Source: an uncultured Cytophagaceae bacterium (lineage in GTDB: Bacteria; Bacteroidota; Bacteroidia; Cytophagales; Spirosomataceae). Taken from it: a stretch of DNA of 13,685 nucleotides. Below are positions 1 to 13,685 of this stretch, piece after piece. Under the pieces are notes generated by a model. That model was given only the letters and a program-made list of their open reading frames with translations. It made no database searches and was not told the DNA's origin. Every line of letters begins with the position of its first letter. The first letter of the stretch is position 1. The stretch spans positions 1-13,685 of the forward strand of contig CALLKB010000033.1 in NCBI GenBank assembly GCA_938008575.1, in the 5' to 3' direction. A program made the translations under genes and the position numbers.

Positions 1-1381
1 TATAAAACATATTTTTCAAATGCTTATTTTTCAAACTTGGCTTTAAAATAGCCGTCTGCATTAAAGTATTCGCAAGTCCATAGGCATTCCCCTTAAATGC
101 ATGGTAATCACCCATAAAATCTTGGTGTGCATAAGAACGTTTATAAACAATTGAATCCCGAATCGATACACCACAATATTGCTCCAAACGATCCATCAAT
201 TGATCAAAATACTGTTCTCGAACTTCCTCGGTATCTACCAAATTAGGGGCAACGGGAATCAACAAAAATAAATTTTCACAACCTTCAGGTGCAATAGAAG
301 GATCCGTCACAGATGGCGCAGACGCATAAAACAAGGGATCAGATGGCCACATCGGATCCGTGTAAATTTCATGGGAATGAACCGAGAAATCGCGATCAAA
401 AAACAAATTATGATGCTTTAAGCGAGGCAAACGCTTATTAATACCTAAATAAAACAACAGCGATGAGGGTGCCATGACACGCTTATCCCAATAAGCCTCG
501 TCATAATTGCGATGGGCATCGCCCAACAAAGTCTCGACATGGTGATAATCGGCACTTGCGACAACAGCATCAGCAGTTAGAATTCCTCCAGCAACCTTTA
601 CCCCCTTCACCTGACCAGCCTCGATCGCAAATCCTGTTACTTCTGAGTTATATTGAATGTTAACACCCTTGGAAATGGCTAAATCTACCATTCCTTGGAC
701 AATTTTATGCATCCCTCCCATGGGATACCAAGTACCCAATTTGATTTCCGCATAATTCATTAAGCTATACATCGCCGGCGTATTTTGCGAAATGGCCCCC
801 AAAAATAAAATGGGAAATTCCATCAATTTCAACAAGGTCTCCGACTTGAAAAATTTGCGTACATGCGAATAAAAGGAAGAAAACACATCCATCCGCAGGG
901 CATCCACAAGAATCCGCAAACTCAAAAATTCCGTTATTTTTACAGAAGGCTTCCAAACAAATTCTTGAATCCCCACTTTATATTTATAGGCCGCTTGATC
1001 CAAAAAACGATCCAAGGCGTTTGCCGCACCCGGCTCTATCGATTCGAATAATTCGCGCAACGCACCATAATCCGCTGGCATATCGATCACCTCTTTATCA
1101 GAAAGTATCACACTATATGAGGGATCTAAGCGCTTTAGCGTGTAATAATCGGCAGTTTTCTTACCAAAACGAGCAAAATAATTGTCGAAAATATCAGGCA
1201 TCCAATACCAACTAGGTCCCATGTCGAAAGTAAAACCTTTTTCCTGAAACACCCGGGCACGACCACCTGCTTGTTCATTTTTCTCTACGATTGTTACCTC
1301 GTAGCCTTTATCGGCGAGCTCCGTTGCCGTAGACAAGCCCGAGAATCCCGCACCAATAACAATGACTTTTTTCTTCTTCAT
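1..1381 (-). CDS. crtI: Phytoene desaturase, CrtI family (3' end outside the window)
   Basis: FAD-dependent carotenoid desaturase expected to convert phytoene to lycopene at the cytoplasmic membrane. Translating the minus strand from the ATG at 1381 gives 460 codons without a stop. The N-terminus carries a Rossmann dinucleotide-binding fold: G10-A-G-F-S-G15, acidic E33 at the end of the second strand, then GGRA at 39-42. The stretch 'FDMGPSWYWMPDIF' (about residues 52-65) is typical of Bacteroidetes CrtI. The last visible residues contain 'GNAYGLANTLMQTAILKPS', the start of the conserved C-terminal CrtI signature; by comparison with family members of about 490 residues, only about 30 residues are missing. 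The start is clear because the Rossmann fold begins five residues in. It follows an ECF sigma gene on the same strand but is separated from it by a terminator and has its own promoter-like sequence. A related CrtI-type desaturase (CrtD or CrtN-like) cannot be fully excluded. Confidence 0.92.
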   Translation of the reverse strand, partial: MKKKKVIVIGAGFSGLSTATELADKGYEVTIVEKNEQAGGRARVFQEKGFTFDMGPSWYWMPDIFDNYFARFGKKTADYYTLKRLDPSYSVILSDKEVIDMPADYGALRELFESIEPGAANALDRFLDQAAYKYKVGIQEFVWKPSVKITEFLSLRILVDALRMDVFSSFYSHVRKFFKSETLLKLMEFPILFLGAISQNTPAMYSLMNYAEIKLGTWYPMGGMHKIVQGMVDLAISKGVNIQYNSEVTGFAIEAGQVKGVKVAGGILTADAVVASADYHHVETLLGDAHRNYDEAYWDKRVMAPSSLLFYLGINKRLPRLKHHNLFFDRDFSVHSHEIYTDPMWPSDPLFYASAPSVTDPSIAPEGCENLFLLIPVAPNLVDTEEVREQYFDQLMDRLEQYCGVSIRDSIVYKRSYAHQDFMGDYHAFKGNAYGLANTLMQTAILKPSLKNKHLKNMFY

Positions 1382-1387
1382 GCTAAA

Positions 1388-1421
1388 CAAATATACTAAA
1401 AACTGATAAGCTTTTGGCAAA
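1388..1421 (-). promoter_or_regulatory. Candidate Bacteroidetes-type promoter of crtI, near-leaderless
   Basis: On the minus strand TTTG (1421-1418) is followed after 22 nt by TATATTTG (1395-1388), matching the Bacteroidetes -33/-7 pattern TTTG / TAnnTTTG. Only 6 nt separate the -7 element from the crtI ATG, so initiation at the usual distance would give a leaderless or nearly leaderless transcript. The -33 element lies immediately beyond the T-run of the hairpin terminator. The motif match is direct; promoter activity is inferred, and A+T-rich DNA yields such matches by chance. Confidence 0.45.
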
Positions 1422-1423
1422 AG

Positions 1424-1450
1424 AAAAAGTCAGATAAAATCTGACTTTTT
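1424..1450 (-). terminator. Intrinsic terminator after the sigma factor gene
   Basis: A perfect 12-bp inverted repeat AAAAAGTCAGAT (1424-1435) and ATCTGACTTTTT (1439-1450) encloses a 3-nt loop. It lies 47 bp past the sigma factor stop codon and, read on the minus strand, ends in a T-run. The A/T ends make it potentially bidirectional, but no plus-strand gene ends here. It would insulate crtI from sigma-factor transcription, or attenuate read-through. Confidence 0.85.
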
Positions 1451-1497
1451 GCTTCTTCTTCTGTTAACCAAAAAACTAATTATTACAATATGAATAC

Positions 1498-2001
1498 TTA
1501 GGCATACATACTTAAATGACTTTTTAAGGTCTTCCGCGCAATGTGAATCCGGTTCTTTACCGTACCAATTGGCAAATTCAACTCCTCCGCAATCTCATGG
1601 TATTTAAACCCCTCAAAATACATCAAGAAAGGAACGCGATACATTTCTTCCGTATGACGTAAGGCTAAAGAAATATCTTCGTTCATAAAAGAACGCTCCG
1701 CACCATTCAATTGGATGGAATCTGATGAGTTGATGTAGTGTAAATTATCTGTTGTGTCGATGAACGTATTCCGACGAACCATTCGCTGGTATTGCGTGAT
1801 GAATGTGTTCTTCATGATCGTAAACAACCAGGCTTTCAAATTTGTCCCGTCTGAATATTTCTCACGATTTGTAAATGCTTTTACTAAGGTGTCTTGAACT
1901 AGGTCGTTGGCGTCATCCCCATCGCGTGTTAAGCGCAATGCAAAGGGCTTCAAAAACTTCGAAAAAGTACCTACCTGATATGAAAACTCTAAAGCTGTCA
2001 T
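1498..2001 (-). CDS. ECF-type RNA polymerase sigma factor
   Basis: Alternative sigma factor that would direct core RNA polymerase to a specific promoter set in the cytoplasm. The 167-residue protein has the two-domain ECF layout. Sigma region 2 spans about residues 12-78, with the core-binding/-10 segment 'DDANDLVQDTLVKAF' (29-43) and 'LKAWLFTIMKNTFI' (55-68). Sigma region 4 spans about 105-162, with a helix-turn-helix at 131-160 ('HEIAEELNLPIGTVKNRI'). The length is normal for the family. No anti-sigma gene (FecR-like or zinc-binding) is adjacent: crtI lies downstream and a divergent receptor gene upstream. The crtI neighbour suggests control of carotenoid synthesis, perhaps by light or stress, which is inference from position only. 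The ATG at 2001 lies 23 nt behind a promoter-like sequence and is the only sensible start. Confidence 0.93.
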   Translation of the reverse strand: MTALEFSYQVGTFSKFLKPFALRLTRDGDDANDLVQDTLVKAFTNREKYSDGTNLKAWLFTIMKNTFITQYQRMVRRNTFIDTTDNLHYINSSDSIQLNGAERSFMNEDISLALRHTEEMYRVPFLMYFEGFKYHEIAEELNLPIGTVKNRIHIARKTLKSHLSMYA

Positions 2002-2024
2002 GTTTTTTTGCTTTTTGTGTTTAA

Positions 2025-2054
2025 CAAATTTACCAAAAGATTAAACAAAACAAA
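2025..2054 (-). promoter_or_regulatory. Candidate promoter of the sigma factor gene
   Basis: On the minus strand TTTG (2054-2051) is followed after 18 nt by TAAATTTG (2032-2025), an exact fit to TAnnTTTG. The -7 element is 23 nt from the ATG at 2001, a plausible short leader. The spacer is slightly shorter than usual and contains one arm of the inverted repeat at 2040-2066, so binding there could control this promoter. Activity is inferred. Confidence 0.5.
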
Positions 2055-2066
2055 TAATTGTTTAAT
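2040..2066. repeat. Inverted repeat ATTAAACAA-N9-TTGTTTAAT, candidate operator
   Basis: Two perfect 9-bp arms at 2040-2048 and 2058-2066 are separated by 9 nt. The core TTAAACAA occurs a third time at 2082-2089, 41 bp from the first copy (about four helical turns), and a looser relative TTTAACAAA lies at 2020-2028. The inverted pair covers the -33 element and part of the spacer of the sigma gene's promoter, a usual place for a dimeric repressor or a MerR-type activator. The region is A+T-rich, so chance contributes, but three copies of one octamer within 50 bp is notable. The binding protein is unknown. Confidence 0.5.
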
Positions 2067-2129
2067 ATTTTTCAAAATAAATTAAACAAAATTTCATCGA
2101 CATGCATTTGCTGTTCGTCGGCTATTTCG

Positions 2130-2160
2130 TTGCATTAGTCAACCATGGCATGTATATATG
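2130..2160 (+). promoter_or_regulatory. Weak candidate promoter of the TonB-dependent receptor gene
   Basis: TTG (2130-2132) followed after 20 nt by TATATATG (2153-2160) is one mismatch from the TAnnTTTG element. It would leave a leader of about 35 nt before the ATG at 2199. A second TATATTTA at 2173-2180 also resembles a -7 element but has no matching -33 partner. The rest of the 197-bp divergent region shows no other gene or clear hairpin. Confidence 0.25.
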
Positions 2161-2198
2161 TGATTTTGGAGCTATATTTAACCTTTTGAACATAATTA

Positions 2199-4535
2199 AT
2201 GCTTCGTAGAATTTTCTTCTTGTTAACGTTTATGACTTGGGCTCATTGTGCATGGGCACAAAGTAATTGTTCATGTACATTAGAAGGAAATGTCACTTCA
2301 AAAGAGAATAAAGAATCCATTCCTGGCGCAAATGTCTACTTAAAAGGAACAAATAAATACGCGATATCAGACAAAAAAGGCTTTTTCCGGATCACAGCCC
2401 TCTGCCCCGGCAATTATATCCTTATCTGCCAAATGAGTAGTTTTGATGCAATCGAAATTCCCATTTCAATCAATGATGAAGTACGTCACCAAGAGAATTT
2501 CCGATTAGAAAGCCATGATGAACACCTGCAAGAAGTAGTTGTCAGCGGAAAAAAAACAGAAACTAGCGCACAATTACGGGGAAATCTCAGCAAAGAGGAA
2601 CGCGCTGAACGCGATGGACTCAGCCTTGGCGAAATGATGCGCGGCATCAGCGGTGTTCAAAGTTTACAAACAGGAAGCACCATATCAAAACCCGTCATCC
2701 ATGGCATGCACTCTTCACGTGTCATCATACTAAATCAAGGGATAAGACAAGAAGGCCAACAATGGGGAAGTGAACATGCTCCGGAAATTGACCCATTCGT
2801 ATCCAAAAATATTCAAGTAATTAAAGGTCCAGGTGGCTTACGCTATGGTGGAGATGCGATCGGAGGAATTGTCATGATGGAACCCGATGCCCTACCAGAT
2901 ACGGCGGGAATTAAAGGGGAAATTCAATCCATTTACTTTTCAAATGGCCGACAAGGCGTTATTTCGGGCTCTTTACAAGGGGGCATCACAGCTAACAAAG
3001 GCTGGGGATGGCGCATTCAAGGTACATTGAAAGATGGAGGAAATATTCAAACAGCCAATTACTACCTCGCAAACACAGGTGTGCAGGAGCAAAATTTTTC
3101 CGCGGCTGTTGGCTTCAAGAAGAACAAATGGTCGAGCGATCTATTTTTCAGCCATTTCCATTCCGTAATCGGCATCTATTTAGGTTCACACATCGGCAAT
3201 GTGAATGACCTTGAAAATTCCATTGCACGTACCCGACCATTTCAGGCATTTACCCCCTTACAATTTAGTCGGGAAATTGACCGCCCCAACCAAGATATCA
3301 CCCATAGTTTAGGGAAATTAAAGACACAATATCAATTGACGAATGGGCGAGCTATTCGATCGACATTGGCATTACAAAACGATGAAAGACTAGAATTGGA
3401 TGTCTTACGAGCAGGGAAAAATATCAATAACCTGCAATTCTTATTGCGGACATTCAATGGTGAAATACTACTCGATGAATCGAATGCTAACCAATTATGG
3501 AAGGGGCAATTTGGGATAAACTTCCAGCTCCAAGGAAATGTCACGTCCGGAAAAGATGTAGCAAACCCAACCCTTACGACGAGTCTTTTACCTAATTATT
3601 TCCAAAACGCTTTTGGCCTGTTTGCTATCGAACGTTTAGTGAAAGAAAAATACGAATTGGAATTAGGCCTCCGCGTCGATGAAAAAACGATCGATGTTCA
3701 CCGACCTAAATCGAACTATTCGAATATCATTTATCGCAATGCCAACCACTACTTGGGACTTTCAGGAAGTCTAGGACTGAAATATCATTGGACTGAAAAA
3801 TTAGAAAATCACCTCATCCTCGCGCGAGCATTCCGAGCGCCTGGAGTCAATGAACTCTTTTCATATGGTGTTCACCACGGAGCGGCGGCATTTGAAATAG
3901 GAGATCCTGGACTCAAGGGAGAAACCGCTTACAACCTGAGCTTAAATACAATTTATGCGCCCAAAAATCTTCAAATTGAGCTCGGCTTATACAACAATTA
4001 CATTCAAAACTTCATTTACCTGAGACCCTTAGTTAACAATGGAGAAGCCGTCTATTTCACCACCGTGCGCGGAGCATTTCCGGCTTTCGCCTACGAACAA
4101 ATTAACGCCATTTTTCAAGGAGTTGACGCACAAGTGAATTACCAAATCAGCCCTAAATTGTCATTCCAACAGAAATCAAGCATTGTACATGCTTTTGACG
4201 TAAGCCACAATTTCACCTATCTAGTTAATATCCCAGCGAATCGATTTGAATACACACTTAGCTATCGCTGGATGCAAGAAAAACAATATGTAAGTGTGGG
4301 GCTCGTTCAAGTGAGCGAACAAACACGTGTGGAACCCGGATCCGATTATGCTGTACCTCCGAAAGGCTACCAATTGGTTCAGGCCAATTGGGGAATCAGT
4401 TTAAAGAAATTCGACATTGGATTACGCATCAGCAATGCATTCAATACAGCATACCGCGATTACTTAAACCGCTTCCGTTATTTTGCGGATGACCAAGGTC
4501 GGAATATAAGTTTACGCGTGCTATATAAAATCTAA
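2199..4535 (+). CDS. TonB-dependent outer-membrane receptor with carboxypeptidase-like N-terminal domain
   Basis: Outer-membrane gated channel expected to import a scarce ligand using energy from TonB/ExbBD. The 778-residue protein starts with a signal peptide (1-20, cleavage after 'AWA'). A carboxypeptidase-regulatory-like beta domain follows (about 27-103, with 'IPGANVYLKGTNKYAISDKKG'). Then come a TonB-box-like segment 'LQEVVVSG' (110-117), a plug domain (about 120-228, containing 'NIQVIKGPGGLRYGGDAIGG') and a beta-barrel to the end. The plug contains 'GQQWGSEHAPEIDPF' (186-200), a His/Asp motif seen in a subgroup of Bacteroidetes receptors, and the barrel has a His-rich loop near 'HFHSVIGIYLGSHIG'. 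This might suggest a metal or metal-complex ligand, but that is weak. No SusD-like gene is adjacent, so it is not a glycan-uptake pair. The gene stands alone, divergent from the sigma gene and converging on the EnvC-like gene. The Cys residues just after the signal peptide do not form a lipobox. Confidence 0.95.
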   Translation: MLRRIFFLLTFMTWAHCAWAQSNCSCTLEGNVTSKENKESIPGANVYLKGTNKYAISDKKGFFRITALCPGNYILICQMSSFDAIEIPISINDEVRHQENFRLESHDEHLQEVVVSGKKTETSAQLRGNLSKEERAERDGLSLGEMMRGISGVQSLQTGSTISKPVIHGMHSSRVIILNQGIRQEGQQWGSEHAPEIDPFVSKNIQVIKGPGGLRYGGDAIGGIVMMEPDALPDTAGIKGEIQSIYFSNGRQGVISGSLQGGITANKGWGWRIQGTLKDGGNIQTANYYLANTGVQEQNFSAAVGFKKNKWSSDLFFSHFHSVIGIYLGSHIGNVNDLENSIARTRPFQAFTPLQFSREIDRPNQDITHSLGKLKTQYQLTNGRAIRSTLALQNDERLELDVLRAGKNINNLQFLLRTFNGEILLDESNANQLWKGQFGINFQLQGNVTSGKDVANPTLTTSLLPNYFQNAFGLFAIERLVKEKYELELGLRVDEKTIDVHRPKSNYSNIIYRNANHYLGLSGSLGLKYHWTEKLENHLILARAFRAPGVNELFSYGVHHGAAAFEIGDPGLKGETAYNLSLNTIYAPKNLQIELGLYNNYIQNFIYLRPLVNNGEAVYFTTVRGAFPAFAYEQINAIFQGVDAQVNYQISPKLSFQQKSSIVHAFDVSHNFTYLVNIPANRFEYTLSYRWMQEKQYVSVGLVQVSEQTRVEPGSDYAVPPKGYQLVQANWGISLKKFDIGLRISNAFNTAYRDYLNRFRYFADDQGRNISLRVLYKI
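4532..4535. other. Overlapping stop codons of two convergent genes
   Basis: The plus-strand TAA of the receptor gene (4533-4535) and the minus-strand TAG of the EnvC-like gene (4534-4532) share bases in the tetramer CTAA. There is no intergenic DNA, so any terminator of either gene must lie inside the other coding sequence. I saw only a weak 4-bp stem (CCAG...CTGG near 4543-4555) and no convincing terminator. Confidence 0.9.
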
Positions 4536-5944
4536 CGTCGCAACCAGCTTTCTGGATTTTGATGTTGGGTATTTTTCCACACTTGGAAATTGATTTCAGA
4601 AGTTCCATCCTCATCTGAAGCAACAGACCCAATTCGTTGGCCTGTTTTCACCTTTTGTCCAGCACTGACAGATACATTAGCCAATTTACTGTACACTGTG
4701 AAATACTCCCCATGCTGAATGGCAACCACCATGTTAATCCCGGGAATATTTTGAACCGTAGCAACCACGCCATCATAAACCGAATGAACGGGAGATCCAG
4801 TCGATGTCTGAATATCAATTCCATTGTTATTCACCATAACCCCTTTCAAAACAGGATGTTTATGCACGCCAAAATGATCTGAAATAAATCCCGAAGGCAC
4901 AGGAAAAGGCATCCGACCACGCAAGGCGGCAAATGAACTCGCTAATCTTGCCTCATCCGCATTCATGTAATAGGTATTCGAATTCAGGGCAGGTTCCTCC
5001 ACTTTCGCTACAGGAGCAGCCTCCTCTTTTTTCGGTTTTGCTACTTCTTTTTTCTCAACACGCGCTTCCAATTTCGCCTCTTCTTTCGACTCCCCAGCTG
5101 TCGGCTTTTCATATTTCTTCACCATCCCCTCCTCTAATTTCGGTTTCGGCAAAGCAGGCTTATTCACTTCTAATTTACGCGCTTGAGCCGCCATACGTAA
5201 TTTACGCTCACGTTCCATCGACTTCTGAATCTCCCGCTGAACAATGCCTGCGATCAAATTATCCAATTTCCGAATCGCTAATTTCTTACGCTCTAATTCC
5301 GTACGAAGCTTCTTTTCTTGTTGGGTCAAAACCGTCACCACCTTCGTCTCTTTTGTTTTTAACACTTCGAGTGTTGCTTTCTCCTTCTCCTTCTCAACTA
5401 AGACCTTTTTCTCTTCATTCTTTTTGAAAACCACTTGCTGCTTCTTCGTCATCAAATCCTGACGCGTTTCAAAAATTTTATGGGCTTGTTGTTTCCGGTT
5501 CGTCGTAAAATGACGCAAGTAATCAAAGCGACGTGTAAACTCACCCAAGTCCTGGGATAATAACAAGAAACTGATTTTATTTGAAACAGTCGAAACCTTT
5601 TGCGCCTCATACAACATAAGTGCATAGTTTTTCTTCAAGCGCTCCAACTTCGCAGCTAACACATCACTTTCGTGCGTTAATTTGGACGCCTCGGCGGCCA
5701 AAAGCTCTTGGTTTTCATTCAATACATTGATCTGTTTTTTCTGAACAACAATCTGCTCTTTCAAGACATTCAACTTTCCAATCGATACATTTTTCTTTTT
5801 CGATGTACGAGAAATAATCGAATTCAACTCCTTGATTTTTGCCAAGTTGTCCTTCTTTTGCTGCTCCAATTGCGTCTTCTTATCCACTTGTCCCCAAGCC
5901 ACAAAAACACCTAACAAACAAATAATTAAACTGATATAGCGCAT
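4532..5944 (-). CDS. EnvC-like murein hydrolase activator with degenerate LytM (M23) domain
   Basis: Exported protein likely to activate cell-wall amidases during division rather than cut peptidoglycan itself. The 470-residue protein has a signal peptide (about 1-18) and long Lys/Glu-rich coiled coils (about 21-115 and 150-257). A charged, Pro/Ala/Lys/Glu-rich linker (262-325) leads to a LytM/M23 domain (about 345-465). The metal-site histidines of active M23 enzymes are all replaced: HxGxD reads N373-N-G-I-D377, the YxHL position has K420, and HxH reads E450-I-N452. Only D377 remains. EnvC and related amidase activators show this kind of loss, so an enzymatic role is unlikely. The start ATG shares its A with the DUF4292 stop codon (TAATG), implying coupled translation. 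The TPR / DUF4292 / EnvC order is known from Bacteroidetes. No amidase gene lies in the window. Confidence 0.9.
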   Translation of the reverse strand: MRYISLIICLLGVFVAWGQVDKKTQLEQQKKDNLAKIKELNSIISRTSKKKNVSIGKLNVLKEQIVVQKKQINVLNENQELLAAEASKLTHESDVLAAKLERLKKNYALMLYEAQKVSTVSNKISFLLLSQDLGEFTRRFDYLRHFTTNRKQQAHKIFETRQDLMTKKQQVVFKKNEEKKVLVEKEKEKATLEVLKTKETKVVTVLTQQEKKLRTELERKKLAIRKLDNLIAGIVQREIQKSMERERKLRMAAQARKLEVNKPALPKPKLEEGMVKKYEKPTAGESKEEAKLEARVEKKEVAKPKKEEAAPVAKVEEPALNSNTYYMNADEARLASSFAALRGRMPFPVPSGFISDHFGVHKHPVLKGVMVNNNGIDIQTSTGSPVHSVYDGVVATVQNIPGINMVVAIQHGEYFTVYSKLANVSVSAGQKVKTGQRIGSVASDEDGTSEINFQVWKNTQHQNPESWLRR

Positions 5945-6771
5945 TACTTTTTCAAAAATTTAGCCGGAAGTCGAAATGGAAATTCAAGTGGCGTCTCCAG
6001 CAACTCCACTTTCGAATATTTAATTTGAATGACCGTTGTCACTCGCTTGTCTTCCTTGTTCTTCACATCCAAAGTTATTTGGCTTGAAAAAGGGAAAATA
6101 ACTTGATTCAAATTCGTAAACTCCTCAAAATCTAAAGTTAATTTATTACTCGATGGTTCATCACGAACCAATAATTTCTTCAATTTCCTATTCGGTCCCA
6201 CCATGTTATCAATCTTGATTCTACCCGAATCTTGCTTGATAATGATATTCTCATTTTCCCGAATAACCCTTGAATTATTCTTCTTAAATGGCTGATTCCC
6301 GACGATCAAGGACTGCAACATCCGATAATCAATTCGAAAACCCATCACAGTACTTAGGCTATCATAGGTCAAATTATAATACTCGCCACTGATTTTTTGG
6401 TAAAACTGCACACGATCTTGACTAAACAAACCCGTCGCGCCCGTCAAGCCGGCCTGCGAAATATTCACCCAAATGATGCTGTCTTTCTTAACGCGAATAT
6501 CAACGGAATAATTGTCTGTGTTATTTCCAGATTTCCATGCGACCCGAGATTTCGCCTTTAAATAGGTAAAAGCCAAATCCTCCACCGATTCTTTGGAATC
6601 TTGCTCTTCTGTGGCAACAATCGACTCTGGAATCAATTGCGGAACGCTATCTGGCAAAGAAACTACCCGAACGGTATCTACTTGATTTTCTTGTGCAACC
6701 TGAACGACAGAACTCGATTTACAAGCCTGCACGAACACAAAAACCATAAAGAGTAGAACGAAACGCGTCAT
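5944..6771 (-). CDS. DUF4292-family lipoprotein
   Basis: Predicted lipid-anchored periplasmic protein of unknown function; the DUF4292 family is thought to have a LolA/LppX-like fold that could bind lipid or lipoprotein. I place the start at the ATG at 6771, giving 275 residues. From there a hydrophobic stretch runs straight into the lipobox 'VQAC' with C17 followed by K-S-S-S. The frame extends upstream to a TTG at 6810, but that would put the Cys at residue 30 and overlap the TPR gene. The body contains 'YLKAKSRVAWKSG' and 'DIRVKKDSIIWVNISQAGL', typical of the opening strands of this family. The gap to the TPR gene is 25 bp, and the stop overlaps the EnvC start by one base. The family match is from memory of its sequence pattern; the molecular role is not known. 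Confidence 0.85.
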   Translation of the reverse strand: MTRFVLLFMVFVFVQACKSSSVVQVAQENQVDTVRVVSLPDSVPQLIPESIVATEEQDSKESVEDLAFTYLKAKSRVAWKSGNNTDNYSVDIRVKKDSIIWVNISQAGLTGATGLFSQDRVQFYQKISGEYYNLTYDSLSTVMGFRIDYRMLQSLIVGNQPFKKNNSRVIRENENIIIKQDSGRIKIDNMVGPNRKLKKLLVRDEPSSNKLTLDFEEFTNLNQVIFPFSSQITLDVKNKEDKRVTTVIQIKYSKVELLETPLEFPFRLPAKFLKK

Positions 6772-6796
6772 AATTAATTTGATATACAAAATTATC

Positions 6797-8524
6797 TCAA
6801 TTTTCGACAATTTGCTTCATCTTGATTTTTTTATCAAGTAATTGGTTGGCATTTGGCAAAGCAACGGCCTTCTTCCAACTCTCCACGGCTTCTTTTATTC
6901 TCCCTAGCCGGAACATGGCATCACCATGATGCTCCCAGACCGCTGAACTTTGGGATTTTTCATCCGCGACTGCCAAACTTAAATAATGTAAAGCCTCCTC
7001 GTATTTTCCTTGCTGATACAACACCCAAGCATAGGTATCCAAATATGTACCCTCGGCAGGAAACTTTTCAACCAATTGCTTTGACATCGTAGCCGCTTTT
7101 TCCAATCGCTCCTTCCGCAATGACAGGTAATAACTATAATTGTTCAACACATGCTCATCGGTCGGATTCAAAGCCAATACCTTATCAAATGCGACATCTG
7201 AATCTTTAGGTCTACCAACTGCATGATACACATCGCCCAACATGGAAAACAACTGTACATTCCAATTATCGGTTGGCTTAATAATGCCCCGGGCAATTTC
7301 CAAATACCGCAAAGCATCGGGGTTATTCCCTTGTAAATAGCGTGCGAAGCCCAACTGGAAGTTCAAAAATCCTTGCAATGGAAAAGCCTTCAATGCCTCC
7401 GCAGCATGTGTGGCAGCACTATCCACCGCATTTAATTCAAAATCTAACTGAATAATCCTAGCCCAAACTTCATATTTAGGTTCCCCCATGCGCGCGGCGC
7501 GCAAATAAAATTTTTGGCCTTCTTCTAGTTTGGAAGCACTCACATAAAGGTCACCCTGAATAGCTAAAAAGCGAGGTTCATCGGGATAAATTGCCAACCA
7601 ATGCGTCGCCATCTGATTGGCCTGTTCCCATTTGATTGGATCATCGATCAATTCAAAAACTTTCATGGTGACTTGAGCTACCATTGAAGGCAACACTTCA
7701 TGATCTTCGGCCGCTCTGCGCAGTTGGACGAGTGATGAGTCAAAATTCTTTTGGTGTAGATATCCGTTCGTAAGCAACAAAGCCAATTGACCTTGTGAAG
7801 GATATTGCATTTGCAAAGCAAGTAAATTTGCCCGGACTGAATCCGCTTGGCTCAAATCCCAAGCAACATCCATCTGATCCCAAGTTAAAATTTGCTCTTC
7901 ATCATCCATGTCGATGAGTCGCTTGCCCGCCAGCAAGGCCTTCATCAATTGATTTTGTTTCAAGTAGATAAATTCCTTCGTTCGAATAATGGCAGGATAT
8001 TCACCCACATAATGGTCAGCACGATCCAAGGCTTGCAGGGCAAGATCGCCTTGTTCAGACCAAACATATGCCTGTGCTAGTAACAAATTTACTTCCGGCT
8101 GCGACTCATCATATTGGCCTAATTTTGTCAAGCAGGCAATTGCTTCCGAAATTTGCTTATCGGCAAGCAATTGTTCAGCAAAAAACAAGCCATAATCAAG
8201 TGAATAAGGCGACAATTCATGCGCTTTTCGGGCATGTACTAAAGCACTCTTCGGATTCTTTTCTGCGAGGTAAGCTTTGGCGAGGTAAAATGAGAGCGCA
8301 GGTTCATTTGAAATAACCGTTGCCAAACTCTCCCAAACCAAAATGGCTTCCGAATAATCTTCCTTGATATAATGCCGCATCCCCTCCTGAAAAAGCGCTT
8401 CCTGGCCCGTTTTCGATTGAATTAACTTTTTGCCTTGGGCTAAAGCAGGGCTTAAACCAACCAATGCTGTCATAGCAAAACCGACGATCACTCGACAAAG
8501 ATATTTTGCTGTTTGACCAGACAT
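6797..8524 (-). CDS. Exported tetratricopeptide-repeat protein
   Basis: Probable periplasmic scaffold for protein-protein contacts. The 575-residue protein has a signal peptide (about 1-29, cleavage near 'ALA|QG') and then consists almost entirely of TPR-like helical pairs. Clear ones are 'EALFQEGMRHYIKEDYSEA', 'AYLAEKNPKSALVHARKAH', 'GDVYHAVGRPKDSDVAFDK' and 'WVLYQQGKYEEALHYLSLA'. No enzymatic domain is visible. It lies 8 bp after the SGNH-family gene and 25 bp before the DUF4292 lipoprotein gene; in Bacteroidetes this TPR protein regularly precedes DUF4292 and the EnvC-like protein, so it probably serves the same envelope process. The ATG at 8524 places the signal peptide at the N-terminus. 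Confidence 0.88.
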   Translation of the reverse strand: MSGQTAKYLCRVIVGFAMTALVGLSPALAQGKKLIQSKTGQEALFQEGMRHYIKEDYSEAILVWESLATVISNEPALSFYLAKAYLAEKNPKSALVHARKAHELSPYSLDYGLFFAEQLLADKQISEAIACLTKLGQYDESQPEVNLLLAQAYVWSEQGDLALQALDRADHYVGEYPAIIRTKEFIYLKQNQLMKALLAGKRLIDMDDEEQILTWDQMDVAWDLSQADSVRANLLALQMQYPSQGQLALLLTNGYLHQKNFDSSLVQLRRAAEDHEVLPSMVAQVTMKVFELIDDPIKWEQANQMATHWLAIYPDEPRFLAIQGDLYVSASKLEEGQKFYLRAARMGEPKYEVWARIIQLDFELNAVDSAATHAAEALKAFPLQGFLNFQLGFARYLQGNNPDALRYLEIARGIIKPTDNWNVQLFSMLGDVYHAVGRPKDSDVAFDKVLALNPTDEHVLNNYSYYLSLRKERLEKAATMSKQLVEKFPAEGTYLDTYAWVLYQQGKYEEALHYLSLAVADEKSQSSAVWEHHGDAMFRLGRIKEAVESWKKAVALPNANQLLDKKIKMKQIVEN

Positions 8525-8532
8525 TATTCTTT

Positions 8533-9582
8533 TTATTTAGGTAGGGATAGAAGTTGTTTGTTCAATAAATCTAGCCAAATTTTAGCTCCTCGTTGATTCC
8601 AGTGCGAATCAGATTTAAAGAAGTTCTGTTTCGCTTGTTGCTTTAATTCATCCGTTGGATTAACAAAATGGATACTACCCACTTTATTTTCCAGACGAGG
8701 TATAAATTGATTGTATGATTTATCTTCGGTAGCTAAAACAGAAACAGGATTAGGAATAAATGAAAAGATCACTTCATCAAACCCCATTTTTTTAGCATAA
8801 TCCTCAATTTGACGCATGTTTTGAACCAATTCGGCTAAACGCATCTCAGAAACAACCTGAAAAGAACTTCCATCAGCAACAGAATCAACTGTTTGATCTA
8901 AATAAAGGAAGTCCTTCGACTTTGCCAATTTCACACCGGCCGGCTCCCGACCAAATAAACTTAAATTCAATTCAGCTTTCAACTCTTTGAATTTAGAGAA
9001 CAAAGCCAAATCAAAAAGAGCAAACGATAAATTTTCCTCCAAGGTACGATGATAAAGGATTTGCTTGATCGATCTATTAATTTGGGCAAATACCGACTTA
9101 TTTTGAATAACCTCAGGCTTTTCAAAAATGGCAGCAACACGCTCTTTATACATTAAGTTTAACACATTCCGCTCGACGGACTCAACCAACAAAACTCGTT
9201 TTGTTCGTGCTTGGGTGAATTTAAATGTTACTTCAGGCGAATGGTCCCATTTAAAAAACTGAATAGAATTTACACGCTCAAAATAAGCTGGAATAATTTC
9301 GAAAGAGCTGTAGAAATAACTGTCCCCAATCACATACAATGAAATATCTTTTTGCTTTGAAATTAACTCATCAGGACGAACAGCTGACACATCTTTTATG
9401 TACTTGAAATTTGACAAATAAGATATTCCATACAAATCGCCATAAAGATACTTGTCGGAGCCCAACAAACTATTCGGTTGATACCGAGCATGTGTTAACC
9501 ACGACATTCCGCTTTGGGAGCTGCTAACCATTAGCAATCCGGCACATAAAACAAACACCAAAACAGCGAGTAATTTTTTCAT
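8533..9582 (-). CDS. AlgJ/AlgX-like SGNH-family acyltransferase partner protein
   Basis: Likely the extracytoplasmic half of an O-acylation system that moves an acyl (probably acetyl) group, supplied by the neighbouring MBOAT protein, onto a cell-surface polymer. The 349-residue protein has an N-terminal hydrophobic anchor or signal (about 3-22). It has 'YVIGDSYFYSS' with G86-D87-S88 as the nucleophile block, and near the C-terminus 'KSDSHWNQRGA' with D325 and H327. This is the Ser plus Asp-x-His arrangement of AlgJ, AlgX and DHHW-type proteins. I start it at the ATG at 9582, which shares its A with the MBOAT stop codon (TGATG); a TTG one codon upstream (9585) is less likely. The coupled start supports a functional pair. 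The acceptor polymer (peptidoglycan, exopolysaccharide or another) cannot be told from sequence. Confidence 0.82.
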   Translation of the reverse strand: MKKLLAVLVFVLCAGLLMVSSSQSGMSWLTHARYQPNSLLGSDKYLYGDLYGISYLSNFKYIKDVSAVRPDELISKQKDISLYVIGDSYFYSSFEIIPAYFERVNSIQFFKWDHSPEVTFKFTQARTKRVLLVESVERNVLNLMYKERVAAIFEKPEVIQNKSVFAQINRSIKQILYHRTLEENLSFALFDLALFSKFKELKAELNLSLFGREPAGVKLAKSKDFLYLDQTVDSVADGSSFQVVSEMRLAELVQNMRQIEDYAKKMGFDEVIFSFIPNPVSVLATEDKSYNQFIPRLENKVGSIHFVNPTDELKQQAKQNFFKSDSHWNQRGAKIWLDLLNKQLLSLPK

Positions 9583-10988
9583 CAAAACTGAAAATAAATA
9601 AACTGTTTCAAACTAAATACACCGAAAAAGTAAATGATCGCGACTAAAAAAGGGAGTAGAAATACAAAATATTGAGAGCGAATATTCCGTAGAGCCAAGC
9701 CTTTAAAATCCCAATAATATAACCCAAAAACTAATAATATACTGAACAAAACCTCATTTGAATTCATACCCAACAAACTGTTTGAAGGTAAGTCAAAAAT
9801 AAGTTGCTTGAAATACGCTTTAATTTCCGAGAAATGAACTAAGCGAAAAAATACCCAAGCTAGACTAACCAAACTAAATGTTAATACCCGATAGAAAATC
9901 CCACGAATTAATCCGGTTGCATACTTTGCTGCTAATTGAGGGAAAAACCGATTAAGCGTGAATCCAATTAATTGAAAAATACCATGCAAGAAACCCCAAA
10001 TGACAAAATTCCAACTTGCACCATGCCACAAACCTGAAACGATAAAAACAAGCATGATATTAAAATACCATTTGGGCACAGAAACACGATTCCCTCCTAA
10101 ACTAAAGTAAACATAGTCTTTGAACCAAGTTGATAGCGAAATGTGCCATCGACGCCAAAAATCAGGGATAGACTTAGCGGTATAGGGTGCATTAAAATTA
10201 TCCATCAACTTAAATCCCATTACGCGAGCAGCTCCTATCGCTATATCAGAGTACCCCGAAAAATCGCAGTAGATCTGGAAAGAATAAAAAAATGACGCCA
10301 ATAACAGTTGACCGCGGGAGTGTGTCCCAACTGAAGCGTAAACCGAATCCACGAGAATCGCTAATCGGTCGGCAATGACCACTTTTTTAATCAAGCCTTC
10401 CATCATCTGCATAATACCCGCTCTCACTCGGACACTATCCCAAACATGTCGCTCGTAAAATTGATGTAATAAATTCTGTGGTCGTTCAATAGGTCCAGCG
10501 ACTAATTGCGGATAGAACATGACGTATAGACTATAAATGCCAAAATTCCGCTCAGCTTTTTGGTTGCCACGATATACCTCAATCGTATAGCTCATCGCTT
10601 GGAAGGTATGGAAGGACAAACCAATCGGCAATAAGATGGATAGGCTTGGTAAGTGAACTTCCCTACCAAACAAATAGGCTAAATGATAAACGTTATTCGC
10701 AATAAACCCATAGTATTTGAATATTGCTAACACGCCTACGTTCGCAATCAAGCTAAACGCTAAAAATAGTTTTTTAGCGCGCCCTTCAAACTTTTCCAAA
10801 TAAATCCCCGCCCAATAATCAATGATAATTGTCACCAATAAAATAACCAAATAGATTGGAACAAATGCCATATAAAAATAGCAAGATGCCGCAAGCAATA
10901 AAATCCAACGGAAACGGTGCGCCAATAAAAAATAGGCGGACGTAACAATTCCAAAAAACACCAAAAACTGCAAGGAATTGAATACCAT
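9582..10988 (-). CDS. MBOAT-family O-acyltransferase, AlgI-like
   Basis: Polytopic inner-membrane acyltransferase thought to pass acyl groups from a cytoplasmic donor across the membrane. The 468-residue protein is rich in hydrophobic helices from the N-terminus and has the length expected of AlgI/PatA-type members. Conserved MBOAT features are 'LPIGLSFHTFQAMSYTIEVY' (120-139), 'PQLVAGPIERP' (160-170), 'CDFSGYSDIAIG' (241-252), 'DFWRRWHISLSTWFKDYVY' with H282, and 'SGLWHGASWNFVIWG' with the presumed catalytic H322. It begins 6 bp after the ileS stop codon and overlaps its SGNH partner by one base. No alginate or other polysaccharide biosynthesis genes are present, so the acceptor is unknown. 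DltB-like activity is less likely because no dltA/dltC genes are nearby, although these could be elsewhere. Confidence 0.93.
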   Translation of the reverse strand: MVFNSLQFLVFFGIVTSAYFLLAHRFRWILLLAASCYFYMAFVPIYLVILLVTIIIDYWAGIYLEKFEGRAKKLFLAFSLIANVGVLAIFKYYGFIANNVYHLAYLFGREVHLPSLSILLPIGLSFHTFQAMSYTIEVYRGNQKAERNFGIYSLYVMFYPQLVAGPIERPQNLLHQFYERHVWDSVRVRAGIMQMMEGLIKKVVIADRLAILVDSVYASVGTHSRGQLLLASFFYSFQIYCDFSGYSDIAIGAARVMGFKLMDNFNAPYTAKSIPDFWRRWHISLSTWFKDYVYFSLGGNRVSVPKWYFNIMLVFIVSGLWHGASWNFVIWGFLHGIFQLIGFTLNRFFPQLAAKYATGLIRGIFYRVLTFSLVSLAWVFFRLVHFSEIKAYFKQLIFDLPSNSLLGMNSNEVLFSILLVFGLYYWDFKGLALRNIRSQYFVFLLPFLVAIIYFFGVFSLKQFIYFQF

Positions 10989-10994
10989 TAGCTA

Positions 10995-13685
10995 TTAGTT
11001 GATTTTCTGAATTTGGGCAAATAATGTGGCATCATCCATCACAAGCTCAGATTTTTCACCCGCTAATGCCGGCGAAATCGTAATACTTAAAGCCTGAACT
11101 TCTTGTTGAATATACGCTCCAAAAACCTGAATGCTTTCCATCCACGCTGCAGGACCTTCTTCCACATGAATCGCGATCTTATCTACGACATCAAAACCTG
11201 AATCCTTCCGCAAATTCTGAATACGATTCACAAATTCCCGGGCCATTCCCTCCTGAACCAATTCCGGAGTTAAGGTATTATCCAAGGCAATGGTCAAGCC
11301 ACCTTCCGATGCGGTTAAGTAGCCTGGCATATCTTCTGTTACGATTTCGATGTCAGCTAAAGCAATCTCAAAACCATGCAAGTTCGCCGAACCGGAAGTT
11401 TCAATCTGCGCCAAATCACCTGAACTCATTCCTGTAATAACTTCAGCAACAGCCTTCATATCTTTCCCAAATTTCGGACCCAAGGCCTTGAAATTAGGTT
11501 TTACTTTCTTGCTTAATACGCCGGATGCGTCGTCGAGGTAATTCACCAACTTCACATTCACCTCCGACTTAATCAAATCTTCTACCTTGCGAATTTGTTC
11601 ACGGGCAGATTCTTGTAGAACAGGAACTAAGACCTGCGCTAGCGGTTGGCGTACTTTCAATTTATGCACCTTACGGATCGAGTGAACCAAAGAACAAATG
11701 CGTTGTGCCATGTCCATAGAAGCCTCTAAATCAGCATTTTGCCAAGAAGAATTTACTTTTACAAAATCCGTTAAATGTACCGAAGTAGCTCCCGTTAAAT
11801 TCTTGTACAACCAATCTCCATAGAAAGGAGCGATCGGTGACATCAATTGTGCCACTGTCGTCAGACAAGTATGCAAAGTCTGATATGCAGCAGCTTTATC
11901 GGCTGAAATCCCTTGGTTCGTATCCTCCGGATTCCAGAAGCGTCGGCGTGACAAACGAACATACCAGTTGGACAAATGATCACACACAAAATCCTGCACC
12001 GCACGCCCTGCTTTGGTAGGCTCATAGGTCGCATAAGCCTCGTCAACCTCAGCGATTAGACTGCTTAATTTCGACAGGACCCAACGGTCTAATTCCGTCA
12101 AATCGGCCATATTAACACCCTTCGAATCCGGCGTAAAACCGTCCAAATTCGCATACATGGCAAAGAAATTATAAGTATTTGTTAGCGTACCAAAGAACTT
12201 ATTACGCACTTCCGTAATTCCCGCTAAATCAAATTTCAAGTTATCCCAAGGTTGCGCATTGGTAATCATGTACCAGCGCGTAGGATCAGCTCCGTATTTC
12301 GAAAGCGTATCGAATGGATCAATCGCATTGCCCAAACGTTTGGACATTTTATTGCCATTTTTATCCAAGACTAAACCAGTCGAAACCACATTTTTAAATG
12401 CCACCGATTCTTCCACCATCGCCGAAATCGCATGGAGCGTAAAGAACCAGCCACGCGTTTGATCCACCCCTTCTGAGATGAAATCTGCCGGATAAGACTG
12501 TTTGAAAATTTCTTGATTCTCGAATGGATAATGCCATTGTGCGAAAGGCATCGCACCCGAATCGAACCACACGTCGATCAAATCTGCCTCACGTGCCATG
12601 ATAACACCTGAAGGGCTTAACACAAAGATATTATCCACATAGGGACGATGTAAATCTGCCTCCCCTGCTTTTGCAGCAGCAATAAATGCTTCGTTGCCTT
12701 TTTGCTGTTCAGCTGATAATTTTCCTGATTGGATAGCCTTTTCTAATGCATGCACTAAGTCCTCAACTGAACCAAAACACAATTCTTCTGAACCATCTTC
12801 AGCACGCCAAATAGGCAAAGGCGTTCCCCAATAACGAGAACGAGACAAGTTCCAGTCAACTAGGTTCTCCAACCAGTTTCCGAAACGACCTGTTCCCGTC
12901 GACTCCGGTTTCCAGTTAATCGTGTTATTCAACTCGATCAATTTATCCTTCACCGCTGTGGTCTTGATAAACCAAGAATCCAATGGATAGTACAATACCG
13001 GTTTGTCCGTACGCCAACAATGTGGATACGGGTGCTCATATGGCTGATGCTTGTAGAGAACGCCACGCGCTTTCAATTCTTTCACCAAAGTCTTATCGGC
13101 ATCTTTGAAGAAGAGGCCACCTACTAGCGGAACATCACTCAAGAATGTCCCATTCGGTGCGATCGGATTTACAACGGGTAATCCGTAGGCGCGGCAAACA
13201 GCGAGGTCATCTGCTCCGAAAGCAGGAGATTGGTGAACCAGACCGGTTCCATCTTCAGTGGTTACGTAATTGGCAAGAACGACAAAGTGAGAGTCGGGGA
13301 TATCAATTAAATCTAAGGGGCGTTTGTAGGTTACGCGTTCTAGATCTTTACCCTTAATGACCTTTAGAACCTTTACTTCGCCGGATAGTGCGCTAAGAAG
13401 TGCTTCCGCAACAACTAAGACTTCACGGTTCTCTTCGACTACAACTTCAGCTACTGCATAATCAACATCTGGATGAACTGCAACAGCGGTATTAGAAACT
13501 AATGTCCAAGGGGTAGTGGTCCAAACCAGGAGCGCAGCACCGAGATCGGCTAACTCGCCAGATGTAACTGGAAAGCGAACATAGACCGACGGATCGGTAA
13601 CTGTTTCGTAACCTTGTGCTAATTCGTGATCGGAAAGCCCGGTTCCACATCGCGGGCAATATGGCGCAACGCGGTGATCTTGAAC
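10995..13685 (-). CDS. ileS: Isoleucyl-tRNA synthetase (5' end outside the window; mosaic)
   Basis: Class I aminoacyl-tRNA synthetase charging tRNA-Ile in the cytoplasm. The reading frame is open from the window edge, giving 896 residues; about 150-200 N-terminal residues, including the HIGH motif, are outside. The visible order is a Zn-type 'YCPRCGTGLSDHELAQGYE' segment, 'LLVWTTTPWTLVSNTAVAVH', the editing domain with 'GTGLVHQSPAFGADD', the catalytic 'LSRSRYWGTPLPIW', 'KMSKR' at 12336-12350, then the anticodon-binding and C-terminal domains. A TTG at 13142 could be mistaken for a start but lies mid-protein. Residues before 'YEHPYPHCWR' (13011-13040) read like actinobacterial IleRS; those after ('TDKPVLYYPLDSWFIKTT', 'FGNWLENLVDWNLSRSRYWG') read like Bacteroidetes IleRS. 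Hand-counted GC is about 49% in 13141-13680 versus about 42% in four sampled lines downstream. The MBOAT gene follows after 6 bp. Confidence 0.95.
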   Translation of the reverse strand, partial: VQDHRVAPYCPRCGTGLSDHELAQGYETVTDPSVYVRFPVTSGELADLGAALLVWTTTPWTLVSNTAVAVHPDVDYAVAEVVVEENREVLVVAEALLSALSGEVKVLKVIKGKDLERVTYKRPLDLIDIPDSHFVVLANYVTTEDGTGLVHQSPAFGADDLAVCRAYGLPVVNPIAPNGTFLSDVPLVGGLFFKDADKTLVKELKARGVLYKHQPYEHPYPHCWRTDKPVLYYPLDSWFIKTTAVKDKLIELNNTINWKPESTGTGRFGNWLENLVDWNLSRSRYWGTPLPIWRAEDGSEELCFGSVEDLVHALEKAIQSGKLSAEQQKGNEAFIAAAKAGEADLHRPYVDNIFVLSPSGVIMAREADLIDVWFDSGAMPFAQWHYPFENQEIFKQSYPADFISEGVDQTRGWFFTLHAISAMVEESVAFKNVVSTGLVLDKNGNKMSKRLGNAIDPFDTLSKYGADPTRWYMITNAQPWDNLKFDLAGITEVRNKFFGTLTNTYNFFAMYANLDGFTPDSKGVNMADLTELDRWVLSKLSSLIAEVDEAYATYEPTKAGRAVQDFVCDHLSNWYVRLSRRRFWNPEDTNQGISADKAAAYQTLHTCLTTVAQLMSPIAPFYGDWLYKNLTGATSVHLTDFVKVNSSWQNADLEASMDMAQRICSLVHSIRKVHKLKVRQPLAQVLVPVLQESAREQIRKVEDLIKSEVNVKLVNYLDDASGVLSKKVKPNFKALGPKFGKDMKAVAEVITGMSSGDLAQIETSGSANLHGFEIALADIEIVTEDMPGYLTASEGGLTIALDNTLTPELVQEGMAREFVNRIQNLRKDSGFDVVDKIAIHVEEGPAAWMESIQVFGAYIQQEVQALSITISPALAGEKSELVMDDATLFAQIQKIN
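13011..13040 (-). other. ileS: Putative mosaic junction within ileS
   Basis: These 30 bases encode 'YEHPYPHCWR', which is nearly invariant in both actinobacterial and Bacteroidetes isoleucyl-tRNA synthetases. Upstream, 'VPLVGGLFFKDAD' and 'VHQSPAFGADDLAVCRAYGL' are actinobacterial in style, where Bacteroidetes enzymes usually have a 'VHTAPTFGADD' type motif and a longer insertion. Downstream the text is Bacteroidetes throughout. The join is in frame and without stop codons. It may be a recombination point or an assembly artefact. Confidence 0.6.

Follow-up and report, generated by a model that had tools for sequence, protein, structure and literature searches.

The ileS frame at the right end of the window

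The window, i.e. the whole stretch of 13,685 nucleotides analysed here, ends with a minus-strand open frame of 896 codons (10995–13685), which is 5'-open at the window end and whose product was identified by the domain search as an isoleucyl-tRNA synthetase (IleRS) without its first part. The frame runs uninterrupted across a join between an actinobacterial and a Bacteroidota portion (Table 1). For the identity comparisons residues 1–214 were taken as its N part and the sequence from residue 226 on as its C part. The original prediction that ileS is a mosaic of an actinobacterial N-terminal and a Bacteroidota C-terminal portion holds at the level of the sequence: the hallmark peptides it quoted are present, and the halves are separated both by identities and by trees.

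Table 1. Coordinates of the segments and motifs on either side of the join
Feature	Position	Strand	Evidence
Foreign segment, a piece of Nanopelagicaceae ileS (end of the first catalytic half, CP1 editing region)	13035–13685	-	DNA identity 88% to G229, 87% to G235; tree support 100/98; base-level alignment
Crossover word CACCCGTATCCACATTGTTGGCG (HPYPHCWR), 23 bases; switch point within the word not assignable	13012–13034	-	base-level alignment
Bacteroidota ileS body (rest of the catalytic domain, anticodon-binding domain, DUF5915) with native stop	10995–13011	-	99% protein identity to G001; domains; tree support 98/88
Remainder of the Bacteroidota contig, in unbroken colinearity with G001:C205	1–10994	.	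single alignment of 1–13010 at 94% DNA identity
CPRC, first CxxC motif, actinobacterial type	13647–13658	-	motif scoring
CWRT, partner motif, Bacteroidota type, at the join (actinobacterial type: CWRC)	13008–13019	-	motif scoring

The two parts differ also in composition. The GC content is 48.6% in the N part (13050–13685) and 44.2% in the C part (10998–13010), so that of the predicted drop from about 49% to about 42% the upper value is confirmed, while the lower is a little low. The coding strand changes, as foreseen, from C at or above G (153 G and 156 C in the N part) to G-rich (524 G and 365 C in the C part), and 636-base pieces of the C part exhibit GC contents of 42.5–46.1% and GC skews of 0.11–0.24, compared with a skew of -0.01 in the N part. 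Third-position GC was rejected as a separator of the halves: the value for the N part (39.6%, vs 43.5% in the C part) falls within the C part's own range of 38.7–48.1%.

Downstream of ileS, window positions 8533–10988 encode an MBOAT O-acyltransferase and a protein whose AlgX-type match scores under the Pfam cut-off (22.1 vs 26.5 bits), and this arrangement is colinear in G001; judging from the domain matches, the two neighbours look like an alginate-type acetylation pair.

Parents of the two parts

Among the genomes searched, the nearest to the window is G001, to which positions 1–13010 align in one piece with 94% DNA identity; when the right end is aligned alone, the alignment extends to 13047. 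At the matching locus G001 carries a complete native ileS of 1156 aa, whose product is 99% identical to the C part of the window protein and 43% identical to the N part (over residues 4–194). A second G001 ileS with an actinobacterial N part was sought and not seen: beyond the native gene, only matches of 26% and 28% identity were obtained, in another frame, which is probably valS or a related synthetase. In the genus of G001 the query was matched in 36 of 38 genomes, with N-part identities of at most 47% among the matches listed. The C part shows 77.2–92.3% identity to the best 120 matches of the whole-query protein search and 37.9–54.4% to the 120 matches of the N-part search. In the tree of the C part (54 rows) the window is grouped with G001 and L086 (support 98/88, the bootstrap being not fully settled). 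Genomes of the same genus sit in this tree with named Aquirufa proteins (L100 is identical to P0062 from Aquirufa rosea), and the organism is therefore called Aquirufa-like here; according to the taxonomy look-up, Aquirufa is a Bacteroidota genus of the order Cytophagales. The IleRS of this type (G001; P0014 from A. nivalisilvae and P0062 from A. rosea) agrees with the window from 13011 to the stop, at 99% protein identity to G001, but differs upstream of the join, where the native sequence is ...VQKFDHPYPHCWRTDKP and PYSPAAG stands in the place of PYCPRCG in the window. In another genome of the genus, G031, the native ileS is split over two contigs (G031:C162 and G031:C188, with frames of 772 and 433 aa), and the contig with the C part starts about 280 bases upstream of the junction word; ileS may be hard to assemble in this genus.

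For the N part, the best matches among named contigs are titled actinobacteria or Candidatus Planktophila (82% protein identity). The DNA of 12975–13685 was matched in 278 of 296 genomes of the family of G039, the best matches being G229 (88%) and G235 (87%); the family is referred to as Nanopelagicaceae because the 296 include the genome of a Planktophila record (L008, G041). Among the matches listed, every actinobacterial one that reaches the junction ends at query bases 672–675, i.e. at window positions 13014–13011. At the protein level the N part is 92.5–95.8% identical to the best 120 matches of the N-part search, and only 30.3–39.8% identical to the whole-query matches (118 of the best 120 that align there; P0012 and P0013, which are without the N part, are omitted). 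The Candidatus Nanopelagicaceae IleRS (G229 and G235, 94% identity; P0121–P0240, up to 96% in the protein search) resembles the window from 13685 to 13035 and departs from it after the common word, where the native gene continues with CWRCHTALIYYAQPSWYI and the window with CWRTDKPVLYYPLDSWFI. In the tree of the N part (54 rows) the window falls inside 18 actinobacterial rows, with support of 100/98 for the window together with 10 rows and 100/100 for all of them.

These results bear on the reading in which the frame encodes a native, divergent Bacteroidota IleRS whose N part only looks like the actinobacterial type. We regard this as barely conceivable, given that the tree places the N part among the Nanopelagicaceae rows, with a DNA identity of 88%, and that the N part of G001 is a different one (43%, residues 4–194) despite 99% identity in the C part; no point in support of this reading was found. 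The DNA alignments, protein identities and trees agree that the two sides of the join belong to different organisms.

Two side observations concern the actinobacterial genomes. Three records of metagenome-assembled genomes (L009, L010 and L017) are titled Bifidobacterium breve and possess an ileS resembling that of Planktophila; one of these genomes, that of L009 (G042, about 1.4 Mb), belongs to the 296 of the Nanopelagicaceae family, and its title looks wrong. The Nanopelagicaceae genome G267 yielded two distinct matches to the N part (G267:C7:169-854 and G267:C5:1-449, with 79% and 85% DNA identity), one of which sits at a contig end; either a mixed bin or a second copy could account for them.

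The crossover word and the CxxC motif pairs

The join was delimited by a base-level alignment of 7 Bacteroidota and 15 actinobacterial loci. Towards lower coordinates, all 7 Bacteroidota loci depart from the window, and the actinobacterial ones follow it, for the last time at position 13035; the actinobacterial loci first depart at 13011, in 14 of 15 cases (all but L131), which leaves 13012–13034 in between. The change had been predicted to fall at the conserved motif YEHxYPHCWR, and the crossover is indeed located in a word coding for HPYPHCWR; the boundary proposed earlier is near the right place, with the crossover slightly inside it. Within the word, the window and G001 disagree at a single base (13017), and the window and L123, which comes from G229, at two (13026 and 13017); neither of these nearest relatives is therefore the exact parent. 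The exact 23-base word occurs at the ileS of one of the 296 Nanopelagicaceae genomes (G291), which is not the closest of them (74% DNA identity), and no other has it with at most one mismatch. In the genus of G001, none of the 38 genomes has the exact word and 5 have it with one mismatch; we infer that the true Bacteroidota parent had the exact word, through strain variation.

The word was compared with other stretches common to the parent genes. Across 360 native gene pairs, the longest words common to both genes without a mismatch comprise 23 and 21 bases at the junction and 22 bases elsewhere, a narrow lead for the junction. The idea that the junction is simply the longest common word of the parents was dropped, as this is true of only 46 of 450 single pairs, the longest word lying elsewhere in 404 (the set of 450 includes repeats, L135–L137 being the genomes of L123–L125, and is reduced to 360 by their removal). 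These counts place the junction among the few sites suitable for a bridge by a short k-mer, not as the sole one.

The motif composition of the frame distinguishes it from all other sequences scored. PYCPRCG and HCWRC are found together in 120 of 120 actinobacterial-type proteins, and both CxxC motifs are present in 69 locus frames and in 12 loci of the family, with no mixed case where both motifs were scored (the scoring covered 78 frames from 80 actinobacterial loci, and 9 of the 78 are outside the pattern for the first motif). Bacteroidota-type proteins carry PYSPAAG and HCWRT in all 115 scored for both motifs (5 of the 120 are without the first motif and were excluded from the pair count), and neither CxxC motif occurs in the 29 genus loci so scored (L088, one of 30, is without the first motif and was excluded). 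Of the sequences scored, only the window combines CPRC with CWRT, i.e. the paired motifs have not been kept together. The solved relative 8c8u exhibits both CxxC motifs (CPSC and CWRC). The four cysteines of CPxC/CWRC presumably form a zinc site in IleRS, of which the chimera would keep three. In the excerpted texts of PMC7299287, PMC4861432 and PMC7373986 these cysteines are not named. The Aquirufa-like IleRS (L001, L086–L114; P0001–P0120) is without both of the CxxC motifs of the actinobacterial enzymes and 8c8u, which from sequence comparison suggests an apparent joint loss within this type.

Probable origin of the two-phylum frame

The original prediction had proposed looking for the join in related genomes. 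None of the 390 genomes from the order of G001 has an actinobacterial-type N part at an E-value of 1e-40, at which three actinobacterial control genomes match with 1e-121 or better, and none of the 296 Nanopelagicaceae genomes has a Bacteroidota-type C part at a threshold of 1e-220 (as controls, G001 and G018 reach E 0 and three actinobacterial genomes 1e-111 to 1e-141). In the 38 genomes of the genus, too, the join is absent among the matches listed. The protein searches revealed no mosaic among the best 120 of 7990 scored matches (whole query) and the best 120 of 7999 (residues 1–214), and a 33-base junction word had no match in viral_contigs, which is a weak test for a bacterial gene. An identical join in an independent genome or protein was thus not found in the genomes, viral contigs and best 120 + 120 proteins searched, and no title among the literature matches listed refers to an intragenic ileS mosaic or an internal ileS splice.

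We are highly confident that the two-phylum ileS is an artificial chimera, in which the last about 0.65 kb are actinobacterial and have been wrongly joined to a Bacteroidota contig. This reading is based on the colinearity of G001 over 1–13010 together with its whole native ileS, on the position of the switch in a 23-base word that codes for a motif common to both parents, on the absence of a second mosaic from the sets searched, on the one-sidedness of the foreign piece, which comprises about 650 bases and runs off the window, and on the mixture of CPRC with CWRT, given that all 120 actinobacterial-type proteins have both CxxC motifs and all 115 Bacteroidota-type proteins scored for both have neither. 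The bridge would be a word of about 23 bases, which can occur both in the ileS of the Aquirufa-like contig and in that of the Nanopelagicaceae; past it, the contig would continue with about 650 bases of actinobacterial ileS until the window ends. Such a join was presumably made in assembly (through a shared k-mer) or in library preparation (through template switching), not in a cell, and a protein like the product of the 896-codon frame probably does not exist. The excerpted text of PMC7299287 describes chimeric contigs produced by metagenome assembly where graphs share k-mers, mainly for related species. The present case is similar in that two genomes are united in one contig, presumably at k-mers common to the assembly graphs, but the chimeras in that excerpt concern closely related species, whereas here two phyla have only a short conserved coding stretch in common. 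Three points count against a chimera: an exact k-mer could form the bridge only in strain variants beyond the 38 + 296 genomes searched, in which the exact word occurs in G291 alone; in most single pairs (404 of 450) the longest common word lies away from the junction; and the frame is intact across the join, though any in-register join in an aligned run of codons gives that.

The intact frame and the switch in a conserved homologous stretch would also fit a real in-frame recombination, by which the editing-region segment of ileS in a Bacteroidota strain was swapped for its Nanopelagicaceae homologue through about 23 near-identical bases, resulting in a hybrid enzyme. We consider this very improbable, as there is no carrier among the relatives in the sets searched, the motif pair is split into CPRC and CWRT, the products of the parents are only 39–42% identical in the C part, and the foreign part is not closed by a second junction within the window. 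Exchange through some 23 bases between such divergent genes, and in an essential gene, is unlikely. In favour of recombination, the excerpt of PMC4861432 describes transfer of ileS2-type genes between bacteria, in that case of whole genes. The biological fusion of two phyla put forward in the original prediction is thus not borne out by the native N part of G001 and its genus (among the matches listed), the lack of a second mosaic and the split motifs; close Bacteroidota genomes, i.e. G001 and, among the matches listed, its genus, have an IleRS that is native throughout, which the prediction had named as evidence against a mosaic. The best fit is the alternative that the prediction deemed at least as likely, a chimera made by assembly at a conserved k-mer.

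It had also been pointed out that the answer decides to whom the right end belongs. With an artificial chimera, the DNA to the left of about 13011 belongs to the organism, and the last 650-odd bases, from another organism, are unfit for use in describing it. The motif pairs offer a cheap check of such joins: real proteins have CPRC with CWRC and SPAA with CWRT, and in the chimera the partners do not match. Were the fusion true, the gene would provide a striking example of phyla exchanging an editing region; if it is not corrected, the contig would lead to a false cross-phylum fusion of an essential enzyme.
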